Shown here: positions 1,251 to 25,198 of the stretch, piece by piece
Position numbering within the stretch: the first letter of the stretch is position 1
Layout: each line of letters begins with the position of its first letter
From: a virus
Direction: 5' to 3' (one strand)
Length of the DNA stretch: 27,694 bases
Virus record (IMG/VR): IMGVR_UViG_3300032093_000676
Location: 1 to 27,694 of that record
Translations under genes and position numbers: made by a program
The notes under the pieces: generated by a model
What the model was told of the DNA's origin: nothing
Seen by the model: only the letters and a program-made list of their open reading frames with translations
The model's database searches: none

Positions 1251-2927
1251 TTACCTTACAAGGGGATTTGCGGCCAATTGATCACGTTGTGTGCGCAATG
1301 CTTGCAGTGCTTGCGCGTTTGCAAGATTTGGTTGCTGCCTCAAAGTTTGCATAGCACGTTCAATTTCTATATCCAAACTACCTATCCGATCAGTAATTGG
1401 GCCTGTCACTTCTGGACTGATGTTTCCATACCTGGGTGCGGGCGCAGGAGTGGGCAAAGGAATTGCAGACGCAGGAGCAGCTACAGCCCCGCCTTTACCA
1501 CCGCCAGCAAATGGATCGCTGCCTGGTTTTGCGTCTTTCATTGCAGCAGCCACGGGATCAACATACCCAGTATTGACCCCAAGGGTGGAGTATTTTTTCT
1601 GGATTGCTTTTATCTGGTCAGGCGTTTTTGCCCCTGACACTTCATCTGCGTAGTTCTGTTGCAGCTTTTCATTGGCTTTGTCTGGCACTGGTTTAGCGTC
1701 GCGTTCTCCAGTAATCTTCTTAAAGAACGTCACATCTTGGATTGGTTTGCCGTCTTTTCTTGCAAAATTTCCTGTGTTTTTGTCGTAGCTGATGGGTTCG
1801 CCGTCAGTATCAGCACCAAGTACCGCCCAATTGCCTGTCTTTTCTCCCAGAGACTTGGCCAAAGAATTGCGGTAGTTGGCGTCAGCGTTGTAGTTTTTAA
1901 CCTTGGCGGCTGATTCCGCAATTTTGCCGGGCGTGAGGAGTTGCTCTTCCGCAAATTTGTCACGGTTAAGTCTTAAAGTATCTTCGTCAACGCCCAGTTT
2001 TTTGGCCTCAATGTCCACTCTTCTTTCTGACAACTTCAATTCTTGATTTTTACGGAAATCTTCTTTGCCGCGCCAATAATTTTCTGGCGATGACGATGTC
2101 ATCATCAAGTCCTGAACTTTGCTTGTCAATAACTGCAAAGTACTGATGTCCGCAGGCAGCACTTCTTGTTTGCCCTTTTTGTCCGTAAGCACAATTGAAT
2201 TCCCGCCCATAGCGTTTTTAGCAATCGTCGCAGTTTTTCCGTCGTCCAATCCTGGAAGTTTGCCTTCGTTATAGATTGGGACGAAGTGTTCTTCAAGTAC
2301 TTTAGCAATGTCGCCATTTGTTTGTTTTAAAGAATCAAAAACGTTTTGCTGGAACCCTAAAGCAATTTCTTGCTTTTGAGCATAACGTTCGGCACGTTTA
2401 CCAGAAGAAATGTTAAGGGCACCCGCTTCTGCTGCTTGTGCTTTTTCGGTCAGACCTGCTGCGTAAAGTCGTTTGGAGTACTCATCTGCCGCCATGTCTT
2501 TAGTCATGGTTGGCCGAGCGGGGTTGTACTGTGCTGCTACTGCTTTTGCTTCTGGAGTTGCTGCTACTTCTCCTTGACGTTGTGCATTTTGACGTAACGT
2601 TTCAGCAATTTGTGCTCGGTCGTAAGCGTCAAATGCGTCCCCAGAATTGTTGGTAAGCATTGCTGCTTGCTGTGGGCCTACGCCAGTATCAGCTTGCAGG
2701 TCACCAGATAACGCAGCTTTTCCAATGCGCCCGTAGGATTCTGCGGCAGCAGATTTAACGGATTCTTTTTCCCGCATCCTGTCTTCAAACTCAATTGCTT
2801 GGCGACGATCAGCAGCTTCACGCATTTCGCGTTCTTTTTTCTTTTCTTCAAGTTCTTGCAGCGTGACATACGTGCCTATCCCGCCCTTGACAAGACCGCT
2901 TGCAAATGCACCAAGATTAAACGCCAT
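1251..2927 (-). CDS. internal virion protein, coiled-coil rich (gp15-like position)
   Basis: A 558-residue protein starting at ATG 2927 with a good Shine-Dalgarno (AGAGGA five bases upstream). Residues about 20-60 are a highly charged Glu/Lys/Arg helix (LEEKKKEREMREAADRRQ). The middle is predicted helical (KLSERRVDIEAKKLGVDEDT), followed by a Gly/Ala/Pro-rich linker (about 470-510) and a C-terminal helix. There is no signal peptide and no recognisable enzyme motif. It lies between a smaller Gln/Ala-rich virion protein and the very large virion protein, the usual place of the second ejection protein in short-tailed phages. Its start overlaps the end of the PAPS-reductase-like gene by 11 bases. 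Function is assigned from position and composition only. Confidence 0.65.
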   Translation of the reverse strand: MAFNLGAFASGLVKGGIGTYVTLQELEEKKKEREMREAADRRQAIEFEDRMREKESVKSAAAESYGRIGKAALSGDLQADTGVGPQQAAMLTNNSGDAFDAYDRAQIAETLRQNAQRQGEVAATPEAKAVAAQYNPARPTMTKDMAADEYSKRLYAAGLTEKAQAAEAGALNISSGKRAERYAQKQEIALGFQQNVFDSLKQTNGDIAKVLEEHFVPIYNEGKLPGLDDGKTATIAKNAMGGNSIVLTDKKGKQEVLPADISTLQLLTSKVQDLMMTSSSPENYWRGKEDFRKNQELKLSERRVDIEAKKLGVDEDTLRLNRDKFAEEQLLTPGKIAESAAKVKNYNADANYRNSLAKSLGEKTGNWAVLGADTDGEPISYDKNTGNFARKDGKPIQDVTFFKKITGERDAKPVPDKANEKLQQNYADEVSGAKTPDQIKAIQKKYSTLGVNTGYVDPVAAAMKDAKPGSDPFAGGGKGGAVAAPASAIPLPTPAPAPRYGNISPEVTGPITDRIGSLDIEIERAMQTLRQQPNLANAQALQALRTQRDQLAANPLVR

Positions 2928-5210: not shown

Positions 5211-7045
5211 ATCTGCCTGAGTTCCCCAATTGAGGTGGCCATCTTAAAGCTGCGCAACGGAGCATTTCCGGTCAGCTGTACTTCCCAAATATAGCCCTTT
5301 GAAGAAGCAGGCAAACGCACAGGTTCTTGGGATGTTATGCCTTGGGAATACACTTGAACTTCGTCAGAAAATAAAATAAAGTTTACGTTTCTGGTTTCAG
5401 CAATGTTTGGGATGGGGGTCAAAGCACTGCCGCCAAGCAGCATCCCATTAAGCACAATAGAGTTAACTGTACTGTTCAGAGTAGCACCAGACGCCCAAAG
5501 GGCTTGGTTTGCCGCCACAATGGCAGCAACATATGCGTTATACGCTGTTGTATCGTCAATGTAATCCCAGTCAGCCTGAACTTTCACGGCTCCAAAATTA
5601 GTAGGTGCTGGCAGAACAAATTTCTTTGACTTCCATTGGTAGAACAAGTTGTTTACCGTATCTGCATCAAGTTGATAAATTTCTGTTCCTCCGTAGGGGA
5701 CGACATATACGTTTGCTGTTGACCGCTGAACAAACACAGCTTGAGCGTCGGTGTCAAAAGTTACCAACGGCGGAGTATCCCCACGGGTAATGATTAATGC
5801 GGCCTTTGTCGATCCTACGGCGTAGAACGCAATATACATGTTCTGGTATATCGCCCCAATCATCGAAGTGGGTAAGTAAGTCTGCCATTCGTCTCGTGTA
5901 AACAACGGGCGTGAAATTACATCCATTGCCCCTGGAGCAATTGAAACAATTCCGTTGGGGCTGGCGTACAGAACCCCGTATTGGTCGCCTGCAATTGACT
6001 TCTTGGACACGCATGGTTCAAACAATGGCACTTTCTCTTGCGTCATAGCCCCAGGCGTGGAACCTGTAATCAAATACGGGTGCTGTTTTGTACATACAAC
6101 CAGCGTTTGGCCAAACACGCCAAGCCCGACAATCGGAGACCCAACAGTCATCATGTAACCACTTGGCCAAGCGTGAGGCAGGTATGGCTCGCAAAACCAC
6201 ACTTGGTTCCCGGTAAACCCCGCCAAAATGCCGTTTGGCATTGAAACCAAGCCTTGCAACGTGGCAGGCGGCGGGATGTAGTACAGGGAAGGAAGGATAA
6301 CGCCCAAGTTGGCGGATAAGATATTGTCGGCAAAAGTGCCAGTCGCAACGCCAGTGCTGGGGGTTACGGTAACCTGCCCAACATAGAAATAATTGACGGA
6401 GTCAGTTCCGGCAACAGCCCGGTAAATTCGAATTGCTGTGATGTTGTATCCTGCGGACGACACCGGAGCCGTGGCAAACGCGCTGACTGTGACAGTAGCG
6501 TTTGGCTCAACAGTGGAAATCGCTGTGGCGGGACTGGGGCCAGACTCTTCTAAAACTGCGCCAAATGTGTTGACGTATGTATACACATACACACGATCTT
6601 CATGCACAGTTCCAGAACCGCCGCTTTTAACAAGTGTGGGGCCAGTAGTTGGATTTGGAACGCCCATCTGGTAATAGGCATTTGGAAAAGGTTTTACCCC
6701 TGTCCCGCTAGTAGTTGCCAATGCCCAGTTGGTTTTCTTTGGGCCAACGCCATCGGTGTAGTACACCCGGTCGTCAGTGACGTCGGCTACAGGGCCAGGA
6801 ACGACATTGACATCAGTTGTCCACTCAAGCCAAGCAGTCGCACCAGTAGATGTTTTCTCTAACTGGTAGATAGTCTGTACGTTTGAGTTGCCCGTCGTGT
6901 ATGCAAACACTGGCTTGCGCCAGGGGCGTAACTCGCCCGATTGGATTTTTACATTGCTGGCAACCTGCGCTTGATTGGGTTGAAGTAAAGCAGGGCCAGT
7001 GCGGGGGGAAATGCCCGAAAATGCTTCAAGTTTAAGAAAAGGCAT
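5207..7045 (-). CDS. tail nozzle/stabilisation-like beta-propeller protein
   Basis: A 612-residue beta-rich protein. Features are the N-terminal FSGISPRTGPALLQPNQAQ, repeated short beta blades (DDRVYYTDGVGP, DRVYVYTYVNTFG), a fibronectin-like insertion at about 150-240 (EESGPSPATAIS), and the blade VWFCEPYLPHAWP with following hydrophobic strands. Those features characterise T7 gp12/P22 gp10-type proteins that form the distal tail tube or plug the DNA channel. There are no transmembrane segments. Start ATG 7045 has a purine-rich GGGGGAAG upstream. It lies between the lysis block and the internal virion protein block. The class is fairly sure; whether it is nozzle or stabilisation protein is not resolved. 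Confidence 0.7.
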   Translation of the reverse strand: MPFLKLEAFSGISPRTGPALLQPNQAQVASNVKIQSGELRPWRKPVFAYTTGNSNVQTIYQLEKTSTGATAWLEWTTDVNVVPGPVADVTDDRVYYTDGVGPKKTNWALATTSGTGVKPFPNAYYQMGVPNPTTGPTLVKSGGSGTVHEDRVYVYTYVNTFGAVLEESGPSPATAISTVEPNATVTVSAFATAPVSSAGYNITAIRIYRAVAGTDSVNYFYVGQVTVTPSTGVATGTFADNILSANLGVILPSLYYIPPPATLQGLVSMPNGILAGFTGNQVWFCEPYLPHAWPSGYMMTVGSPIVGLGVFGQTLVVCTKQHPYLITGSTPGAMTQEKVPLFEPCVSKKSIAGDQYGVLYASPNGIVSIAPGAMDVISRPLFTRDEWQTYLPTSMIGAIYQNMYIAFYAVGSTKAALIITRGDTPPLVTFDTDAQAVFVQRSTANVYVVPYGGTEIYQLDADTVNNLFYQWKSKKFVLPAPTNFGAVKVQADWDYIDDTTAYNAYVAAIVAANQALWASGATLNSTVNSIVLNGMLLGGSALTPIPNIAETRNVNFILFSDEVQVYSQGITSQEPVRLPASSKGYIWEVQLTGNAPLRSFKMATSIGELRQI

Positions 7046-17560: not shown

Positions 17561-17617
17561 GGCTACTTCCTTCTTCAGTTAAAAAACTTTTGATGAGTAC
17601 CGCCATGCGTGGGTCGT

Positions 17618-18556
17618 TTAACGAATACGGCCTTCGGCTTGGGCGGCGTTGATTTCTGCTTCCATTTTCACCGCCTCTTCGTTTGTCAACCGGCCTTTGA
17701 TCCACTCGTTGTAAAAATCCGAAACTTCCTGTGAGGAATAGATTCGTTTTTCTCCAGCCGAAGTAGTAGCAGGCGTCGAACGGGAGCGGGTCGGCGCTAC
17801 TTGACTTTGAAGATTCGGCTGTCGCTGTTGCGTAGGAGGAGCAATCATGTTTCTGTACTGCTTGAAAATCGTAGCCGTTCTGGCTGCGTCAAATGCCTCA
17901 TAAGCATTTGTCAATGCGTACTGGCGGGGTAGCCCATAAATGGGATCAACCTCTGCCAACCATGACAGGAAACCTTGGTCTACGTTTAAGGCTTCCCAAT
18001 CAGGAACTTGTGCAGACAGCGCAGACAGAAACCGATCTTTATCGGAAACACCTTGCCGTTCACTCACGTTCCCAAGCTTGCTCTTCAGTTCGTTCACTTC
18101 CGAAAGCAACTGACTTTCTCGGTCGCGGAATCCCGCTACTTTCTGTTCAGTCGCACGGTCGATCAAATCCAACAGATCAGAACCAAATGCTTCTTTGTCT
18201 TGTTCAGTGATAAGAGTCTTGGCCGTACTCGGTTGTTCGTATGCTTGCTGTGCTTTTGACGAGGCGTTCTCTGCGATTAGGGTCTGAACTTGGACATTCA
18301 GTTCCTTCATCTGCGAGTGCAAGCGTGGCACTTCTGCATCGTACATACCCTTGAGCGTAAGGTACTTGCGTTCCCACGTTTCTTCGGATACCGATTTTGG
18401 TTGCGGCTCTTGCGAGACATGCTGCTGCGGCGGATCAGCCGGGGGTTGAGGGTCTAAATTTGGAACAGTCTCCGTGTTATCGGTCTGTCCTGTCATTTGG
18501 GCTACAAACGCATCTGCGTCATCAACTTGTTGCTGAATAGCTCGTGGCAATGCCAT
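17618..18556 (-). CDS. scaffolding protein
   Basis: A 312-residue hydrophilic protein. It has a Pro/Gln-rich N-terminus (DPQPPADPPQQHVSQEPQPK), a central coiled coil (about 75-160, MKELNVQVQTLIAENASSKA), a helical core with VPDWEALNVDQGFLSWLAEV, a Gln/Pro/Ser linker and a charged C-terminal helix pair ending EAEINAAQAEGRIR. This composition and its place directly before the major capsid gene match podovirus scaffolds that template procapsid assembly. The start has a strong AAGGAG. Confidence 0.85.
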   Translation of the reverse strand: MALPRAIQQQVDDADAFVAQMTGQTDNTETVPNLDPQPPADPPQQHVSQEPQPKSVSEETWERKYLTLKGMYDAEVPRLHSQMKELNVQVQTLIAENASSKAQQAYEQPSTAKTLITEQDKEAFGSDLLDLIDRATEQKVAGFRDRESQLLSEVNELKSKLGNVSERQGVSDKDRFLSALSAQVPDWEALNVDQGFLSWLAEVDPIYGLPRQYALTNAYEAFDAARTATIFKQYRNMIAPPTQQRQPNLQSQVAPTRSRSTPATTSAGEKRIYSSQEVSDFYNEWIKGRLTNEEAVKMEAEINAAQAEGRIR

Positions 18557-24108: not shown

Positions 24109-24649
24109 TGTAGGGTAGATGATCTCATCCCCTCGCTGGCAACGATGCCGGACATGATGCCCTTTGCAAACCCTACGGGGTCGGCACGATCTACGGATTG
24201 TGGGTTGATTGTTCGTCTAGCTGGAATCGGTCATTAAAAATTTGCGTGTAATCTCATGCCGTGGCGGGCATGACTGAGTGTGAAATAGACGAAGGCACTC
24301 TGACTGCGGCGATTGTTACCCAGTCAAGCTACGCATTAGGGGCGAACGCAAAACCCTTTGTTGTGGTGATATTCATTAAGTTGGGCAAGGCGGTCAATGT
24401 ACGCCCCGACAATATCACGCAAACACAGCAAGGCAAGTCTATGCGACCTAATACTATCGGGCTTGAATGACGGGACATAGCGCACCACGGTATGCGGTAA
24501 GAATCCGCGCCGGTGTACCCTTGGAAAAGGTACTTTGGGTAGGACTAATGGAAAGACATTAGCAGTAGCGCCGACTAACGGGCGATGAGGTACGCACAGC
24601 GGGCACCAAGAACAGCAAGCCCGAGTCCCCTGTATTCAGGGGGCATCAT
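24109..24649 (+). ncRNA. candidate large structured non-coding RNA (GOLLD-like or new)
   Basis: A gene-free region dense in helices. Exact pairs are: GTAGGGT 24110-24116 with 24170-24176; CTGGCA 24136-24141 with 24146-24151; CACGATC 24185-24191 with 24196-24202 closing a TACG tetraloop; TTCGTCTA 24212-24219 with 24286-24293; TCATGCC 24254-24260 with 24267-24273; TGACTG 24301-24306 with 24321-24326. Also GTGATATT 24366-24373 with 24411-24418, enclosing GTTGGG/CCCGAC; CTAATG 24545-24550 with 24557-24562; CGGGC 24600-24604 with 24619-24623; CCCCTG 24627-24632 with 24637-24642. ATGATGCCC 24154-24162 matches GGGCATCAT 24641-24649, joining both ends. Several helices contain G-U pairs valid only on the plus strand. 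Exact ends and promoter are not determined. Giant lake-phage RNAs such as GOLLD are the nearest known analogue; identity unproven. Confidence 0.65.
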
Positions 24650-24706
24650 AGTGTGTAGTGACAGTATGCACTAAATGTCCCTTTACTTATTAACTTGGAG
24701 AATTTC

Positions 24707-25198
24707 ATGAATCAAATCACAATCGCCCCTGCTATCGTCAATGTGTCTGGCAAGACCAAGGTCGAGCGTCAAGTGTCTGTTGTTCGCACCGCATCTCAGC
24801 AAGCATTGACCGCTTGTCTGTCACTCAAGGGTAAGGTGGGCAACGCTATTCGTGCCAATGCCGCATCCGCTGGTTTGCTCGATGTTGCGGCGGCTTGCGT
24901 CAACTCAAACTACAAGCCACTGGTCGAGATGCTCAGCATCCGCTTGGGTGAACCCATGATTGTCAGTAACCGCGCATCATTCGAGTCACTGCCTGACTTG
25001 TTCGAAGCCCGCATCATGAAGGCAAAGCTGGCGAAGAACGATGGTATGCGTATTGACAAGAAGTCTGGTGCGCTGGTTGCTGGTTCTAAGCTGGCTGTTG
25101 AGATGGAACTCAAGGCATTGGTGACTGACATTATCCGTGCCGTCAACGAGTACCACGCTAACCGCAAGGCTGAGCAACAGCAAGTTGTCGAAGCCTGA
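24707..25198 (+). CDS. early-region phage protein of unknown function
   Basis: A 163-residue protein from ATG 24707, with Shine-Dalgarno TTGGAG six bases upstream; the in-frame TTG 24695 belongs to the Shine-Dalgarno itself. It is soluble and mainly helical: VVRTASQQALTACLSLKGKV, then SNYKPLVEMLSIRLGEPMIV and a central FESLPDLFEARIMKAKLAKN. The C-terminus is a charged helix ending HANRKAEQQQVVEA. I do not recognise the family. It is the first gene to the right of the structured RNA, with codon usage like a well-expressed gene. Confidence 0.8.
   Translation: MNQITIAPAIVNVSGKTKVERQVSVVRTASQQALTACLSLKGKVGNAIRANAASAGLLDVAAACVNSNYKPLVEMLSIRLGEPMIVSNRASFESLPDLFEARIMKAKLAKNDGMRIDKKSGALVAGSKLAVEMELKALVTDIIRAVNEYHANRKAEQQQVVEA

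Follow-up and report, generated by a model that had tools for sequence, protein, structure and literature searches.

A boxA-like element in a large structured non-coding RNA between divergent operons of tailed phages

What occupies the gap between two oppositely transcribed gene blocks of an uncultured tailed phage, when that gap holds no credible gene? The window (the whole stretch of DNA analysed here, a 27,694-base IMG/VR virus record) carries in its left 23 kb a leftward block of structural genes, which encodes an internal virion protein, a tail fibre, the major head protein, a head-tail adaptor/portal and the large terminase, and its rightward block of small genes begins at 24707. A preliminary description had proposed that the interval between them encodes a large structured RNA, possibly of a new class, transcribed from the plus strand. 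To our knowledge, very few phage RNAs of such size and complexity have been described. Comparative sequence evidence confirms a non-coding structured RNA at 24109-24706 (+), which runs from a 5' hairpin up to the next gene's start codon, measures ~560-600 nt and is homologous, colinear or modular, in relatives.

The first gene of the rightward operon (24707-25198, +) encodes a 163-aa protein with a largely helical model, no match in PHROG, Pfam or a phage database and no fold match in the PDB (best E 0.58). A scan of IMG/VR with this protein yielded 19 loci; with conserved-motif scans and two protein alignments the sample reached 58 non-redundant upstream regions in total, and three extra loci lacking a protein match are included in some counts. 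The position of the gene behind the RNA is conserved in the relatives, where the downstream proteins form families that can barely be aligned (A1 versus A2), and those that were tested belong to no known family. Close relatives can be aligned over the whole interval at ~90% identity; in distant relatives (~50% protein identity) short blocks are fixed and the surrounding stems are altered. Searches in wider collections returned chance matches only: a blastn comparison of the region with 50,697 phage records gave matches of 33 bases, and blastn of a related member gave matches to Flavobacterium phages. The RNA core pattern matched once in the genomes of 84,980 bacterial and archaeal species, apparently within a Halomonas coding sequence, and we judged this match to be chance because the remainder of the motif is absent there.

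Is the interval an RNA at all? The folding energy of the window sequence gave z-scores of -2.94 (+) and -1.80 (-) against 100 shuffles. When a slightly different stretch was compared with 24 shuffles, z was only -1.76, and several true relatives fold with z near 0, so that folding energy alone is insufficient as proof, and we rejected these scores for that purpose as too noisy. The sole open reading frame of at least 60 aa inside the interval (24261-24470, 69 aa) bears out the earlier impression that no credible gene is present: an in-frame stop interrupts it in one ~90%-identical relative, another has a frameshift within it, and substitutions fall evenly across its codon positions (3/5/4 and 4/5/4). 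Across the modelled pairs, G-U was counted 14 times and A-C 3 times, which favours the plus strand and agrees with the earlier argument from G-U pairs. A reading in which the interval holds only DNA-level features or an unrecognised coding region can draw on the repeats and the tracts rich in G or C that precede the RNA. The compensatory changes with G-U pairs, the covariation of a pseudoknot (see below) and the interruptions of the only open reading frame already contradict this reading, and we regard it as hardly credible.

Covariation is strong in the 3' domain. In an alignment of 18 members of this domain (A3), the 19 proposed pairs are formed in 92.3% of cells and 15 of them have changed on both sides; the covariation score is 0.557, compared with 0.187 +/- 0.020 after shuffling and at most 0.138 with the partners slid. 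A covariance model built from A3 (R1) finds 30 loci at E <4e-4, one per contig and each directly upstream of the gene, and recovers loci outside its training set (for example L259, L280, L282, L288, L307, L308, L311 and L315). In the 29 distinct R1 sequences all 15 modelled pairs are double-changed, with 147 double-changed cells and a score of 0.908, compared with 0.248 for shuffled and at most 0.10 for slid controls; this alignment was fitted to the model and thus leans towards the modelled pairs.

The domain comprises two hairpins and a pseudoknot between them. Hairpin H4 (24545-24562, +) consists of CTAAT and ATTAG around GGAAAGAC; it is 97% paired, compared with 68% in shuffled controls, with double changes at all five pairs. 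The H-type pseudoknot (24563-24584, +) joins 24564-24566 to 24574-24576 in its first stem (S1) and 24569-24573 to 24579 and 24581-24584 in its second (S2), with G24580 bulged. S1 is of the AAGT/ACTT type and S2 of the CGCCx/yGGCG type with one bulged G, in which the pair x-y is seen as GC, CG, AU and UA. Both stems are 100% paired in the 18 sequences, and double changes affect 4/5 pairs of S2 there and 5/5 in the larger R1 alignment. Hairpin H5 (24600-24623, +) has the arms CGGGC and GCCCG and a conserved 14-nt loop, ACCAAGAACAGCAA; 31 members contain 19 distinct arm pairs, of which the bases are 84% paired versus 55% after shuffling, again with double changes at 5/5 pairs.

We found no R1 match in the nearest isolates by terminase, Pseudomonas phage Rollin and Rhizobium phage RHph_TM3_14A. 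The latter carries at 17600-18200 a divergent intergenic region of ~680 nt with GCTCTTTGACA at 17764-17774 and a folding z of -3.69 (24 shuffles). Its homology to the RNA is undetectable, and as a lead only we mention that it may be a remote counterpart in phages whose hosts are known. A narrow search for the same boxA variant, GCTCTTTGACA, in 219 Pseudomonadota genomes gave nothing.

Additional helices precede and follow this domain. Hairpin H1 (24255-24272, +; CATGCC and GGCATG around GTGGCG) covaries in 24 members with 16 distinct arm pairs, 97% paired versus 55% shuffled (maximum 76%), and has double changes at all six pairs. Hairpin H2 (24276-24300, +) pairs GAGTG with CACTC across a conserved loop containing AAATAGNCGA and also covaries (22 members, 8 distinct arm pairs, 93% versus 78% shuffled, p=0.001), as does hairpin H7 (24649-24673, +; TAGTGTGTA and TATGCACTA around GTGACAG), with 25 members, 18 distinct arm pairs and 90% versus 78% paired (p=0.0005). 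The hairpin at 24494-24508 (+; GCGG-UAAGAAU-CCGC) recurs across subtypes with the loops UAAGAAU, UGCAAGA and UGCAAAU, which may resemble the T-loop of tRNA; its covariation is not significant (p=0.054). The first-pass regular expressions for H1, for the 5' hairpin H0 and for this T-loop hairpin gave poor or non-significant pairing; the H1 signal became clear after a one-base shift of the arm boundary, and the T-loop hairpin remained non-significant. H0 (24118-24129, +; GATG-ATCT-CATC) corresponds in relatives to stems with the conserved loop ATCG and is 69% paired in 53 loci, compared with 50% shuffled (maximum 63%), counted with a crude expression that also captures off-target sites. By analogy, H0 might be a counterpart of boxB. 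Upstream of H0, related loci such as L142/L260 and L276 contain one or two direct repeats of ~40 nt with CCTAxxxTGTAGG-like hairpins, which could be boxB-like protein sites.

Several of these helices had been proposed before. The UACG-capped hairpin (CGATC-UACG-GATTG) is indeed present in the sequence at 24187-24200 (+) and appears as a stem-loop in a terminator scan. The GTTGGG/CCCGAC helix proved to be enclosed in a larger central helix of the MFE fold, GTGATATT with AATATCAC (24366-24373 with 24411-24418, +), which belongs to a subtype-specific domain and has by eye, in the printed sequences, a counterpart with other letters in L134/L286 (CCGATATA/TATATCGG). The suggested pairing of TTTGCGT (24241-24247) with ACGCAAA (24346-24352) is unsupported because one relative (L004) breaks it, keeping ACGCAAA with TTGAGAT opposite. 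The proposed long-range match of 24154-24162 with 24641-24649 is present in the window and invariant in three close relatives, and relatives further out showed no recognised counterpart. The preliminary description missed the 3' pseudoknot domain, the boxA-like element described below and the two covarying hairpins that follow it.

What could allow a polymerase to cross such a region? The boxA sequence is the NusB-S10 site of rRNA operons, and it mainly counters Rho; intrinsic terminators require more. The window contains a boxA-like element, GGTCATTAAAAATTT, at 24229-24243 (+), which is the second, 3' boxA position of the family and precedes the next gene by ~460 untranslated bases. The strict motif G[N]TC[AT]TTAA[AC]AA matches once in the window and exactly once in a 58-kb relative (G003, locus L342), in both cases at the RNA and in its orientation. 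Across the family, the core T[CT]NTTAA[AC]AA occurs in 53 of the 58 loci, with 68 sites versus 1.5 expected and none antisense, which places the putative boxA at a fixed position on the sense strand only. The window copy, GGTCATTAAAA, differs at two positions from the gammaproteobacterial consensus GYTCTTTAANA (PMC5725501). The exact consensus GCTCTTTAACAA is found in L312, L313, L314, L319, L322 and L323, and several relatives carry two copies, of which the first is this perfect consensus. The element is imperfect in L273, L308, L311 and L315, and L259 has the 3' domain with no recognisable boxA.

We also looked for the phage variants in real rrn leaders. The E. coli rrn leader copy adjoining 16S was confirmed, and GATCTTTAAAAA/GATCTTTAACAA were found upstream of 16S in real rrn leaders. 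In 8 of 369 gammaproteobacterial genomes, GATCTTTAA(A/C/G)AA lies ~130-170 bases before the 16S start, mostly followed by the boxC-like TGTGTGGG; by its place in these leaders, we take the GATC variant to be a genuine rrn boxA. A search for GATCATTAAAAATTTG in 274 gammaproteobacterial genomes produced four matches away from rRNA, which we rejected as chance.

Which operon would such a signal serve? In the 58-kb relative, the RNA heads an early/replication operon of ~25 kb on its own strand, which encodes DNA polymerase A, an SNF2-type helicase, a DUF927 protein and a PD-(D/E)XK nuclease. The same operon contains a metallopeptidase/VWA-like DUF2201 protein (by Pfam) and a MoxR-type-ATPase-like protein (by eye, with no Pfam match), the pair lying at 1785-2891 (-) and 6029-7033 (-). 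Inspection of the large open reading frames of this relative revealed no T7-type RNA polymerase; a family search in 12 relatives was also negative, in which the positive controls gave no signal either. No tRNA genes are present in the window or in the 58-kb relative.

Other signals surround the divergent region. A sigma-70 promoter match, TTGACA-16-TACCAT (10/12), at 23958-23931 (-) of the window faces the structural operon. Upstream of the RNA in related loci such as L009 and L317, repeated GTGTGTATACACAC palindromes and GTGTGTAT half-sites lie near the divergent region and are possibly operators or origin repeats. Moreover, the Rfam family Atu_At1, a Rhizobiales sRNA, has matches of 74-88 bits in four relatives, each on the strand opposite to that of the large RNA (L143 772-877 +; L295 1871-1976 -; L314 1924-2030 -; L293 1857-1963 -). 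All four lie in the divergent operon's leader, L313 and L325 show similar sequence, and by sequence Atu_At1 appears as a bacterial sRNA family that these phages carry at a fixed place.

Taken together, the alignments establish covarying helices and a pseudoknot in a plus-strand, non-coding RNA at a fixed site before the first gene of an operon. With only slight preference, we judge it probable that this large RNA, transcribed rightward and probably by the host RNA polymerase, is the leader of the early/replication operon and uses boxA antitermination. Host RNA polymerase would transcribe the untranslated RNA and probably the operon behind it. As known boxA biology suggests, boxA in the nascent RNA would bind NusB-S10 and seed a Nus antitermination complex as on rRNA operons. 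The antiterminated polymerase would become resistant to Rho, and could thus cross ~560 untranslated structured bases and continue into the operon. The 3' domain (H4, pseudoknot and H5) may be an exchangeable functional module that folds under the antiterminated polymerase and either interacts with a partner protein or makes the modified polymerase more stable, which is the least certain part of the model. A functional boxA would mean that the rRNA antitermination machinery is also exploited by phages outside the lambda group, and the signal hints at a way for a phage to produce a long untranslated RNA without being stopped by Rho.

The same divergent location has been considered for a replication-origin or primer RNA, functionally like RNA II of ColE1, a primer similar in size to the structured RNA. 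The replication genes of the early operon would suit such a role; the boxA and the operon-leader geometry require no origin, and domain exchange, described below, would be unexpected for a primer. We consider this role very improbable. A cis-acting 5' leader of the riboswitch or attenuator type that controls the adjacent 163-aa gene would explain the fixed position of the RNA upstream of this gene or its positional counterpart, and H6 and H7 lie between the RNA core and the start codon. However, the same core precedes very different downstream families (A1 and A2), no competing alternative helix was recognised and the RNA is far larger than a usual attenuator, and we think such control unlikely.

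Hairpin H6 (24627-24642, +; CCCCTG-TATT-CAGGGG), identified in the sequence and in printed relatives, bears on where the transcript ends. In some relatives it is terminator-like with a U-rich tail (for example AAACCCTGAGGGGTTTTC), and both cis action on the polymerase and trans action as a free RNA are therefore conceivable. The RNA may accordingly be a free-standing, trans-acting molecule in the manner of GOLLD or ROOL, for example in assembly or as a scaffold, which ends at H6 and in which boxA only shields its own transcription from Rho. Its length and complexity, a conserved 3' domain beside a more variable 5' part and middle, and the replacement of the whole 3' part by a different structured RNA in other relatives would fit such a molecule. 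On the other hand, the RNA is always near the same gene position, neither mobile nor near tRNAs, H6 lacks a U-tract in the window and the RNA has no similarity to GOLLD or ROOL. We rate a free trans-acting RNA as a rather doubtful, though serious, contender to the antiterminated operon leader.

The members vary, and we sorted them by eye into several subtypes, which have boxA, the 3' domain and mostly also H1 and H2 in common and differ in the middle. L134/L151 share the middle type of the window, and the gene behind their RNA is a member of the other protein family. In many of the loci L293-L325 the 5' hairpins and boxA are retained and the 3' domain is missing; among those searched, R1 detects it only in L304, L307, L308, L311, L315, L318 and L320, and L305 also has it by sequence. 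Another structured RNA is present instead in 15 of these loci; its hairpin around TTTGGGTGAAGTAA covaries perfectly, with 32/32 paired across 8 distinct arm pairs. The 3' domain appears exchangeable because other relatives keep the 5' module and boxA before a different small RNA; at least two kinds are seen, the window's pseudoknot type and a small type at loci such as L293, L312 and L325. We tentatively hypothesize, with less confidence than for the leader role, a dedicated phage locus in which boxA, a host rRNA antitermination signal, drives expression of a structured RNA, and the functional domain of this RNA is swapped as a whole between phages. At such a locus the shared 5' module and boxA would precede one of at least two unrelated structured RNAs. 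If true, it would amount to an rRNA-like production line for phage RNA cargo, and exchange of the RNA domain while the boxA module stays constant would suggest that selection acts on the RNA itself.

How does this RNA compare with known families? The functions of GOLLD and ROOL, the best known large phage RNAs, are unresolved. A divergent GOLLD had been suggested as one possible identity, to be checked with the Rfam models for GOLLD, ROOL and other large RNAs. At the curated threshold nothing in Rfam matches the window RNA, and GOLLD and ROOL have no match in the interval at E<=10, none at the gathering threshold in 13 relatives and none at E<=3 in six; on 33 related loci, Rfam finds only Atu_At1, which lies outside the RNA and on the other strand. 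The RNA is thus not a detectable GOLLD or ROOL. Readings as a group I or II intron, RNase P or tmRNA had no Rfam support and were rejected. The RNA was found neither in Rfam 15 nor in a limited search of open-licence literature, and strong covariation together with the absence of an Rfam match supports the alternative suggestion of a new class. We file it as a new family of a known kind, the large phage RNAs, which gain with it a strongly covarying member that has a constant place at an operon and a control signal that can be recognised; its unusual traits are the rRNA-type antitermination signal and the apparently exchangeable domain.

GOLLD RNAs, many of which exceed 800 nt and which often lie near tRNA islands, have a universally conserved 3' region and a variable 5' region and form a homo-oligomeric RNA cage; ROOL forms a homo-octameric one (PMC12286853). 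Our RNA resembles GOLLD, by analogy and not homology, as a large phage-encoded structured RNA with a pseudoknot, a conserved 3' core (30 loci under one model) and a middle and 5' part that vary by subtype. It differs in having no sequence or covariance-model match, in being shorter than many GOLLD RNAs, in lacking nearby tRNAs and in its fixed place at the head of an operon with a boxA. ROOL is likewise a phage-encoded structured RNA of ~600 nt with pseudoknots and of unknown function, whereas our RNA has no match to its covariance model, no tRNA neighbourhood, and a boxA in an operon-leader position. Leaders of rRNA operons (PMC5725501) share the sense-strand boxA upstream of a long untranslated structured RNA, and the GATCTTTAAAAA variant of the phage boxA occurs in real rrn leaders. 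In contrast to these, the phage RNA is not ribosomal, and its boxA is internal, preceded by a 5' module and sometimes present twice.

Early phage operons offer further parallels: lambda nut places a boxA in the leader of such an operon, and HK022 put is a structured RNA that acts on the polymerase. The RNA described here resembles both, as an early operon leader with a boxA, as in nut, and with structured RNA, as in put; it is far larger than either, and no N-like protein was identified with it.
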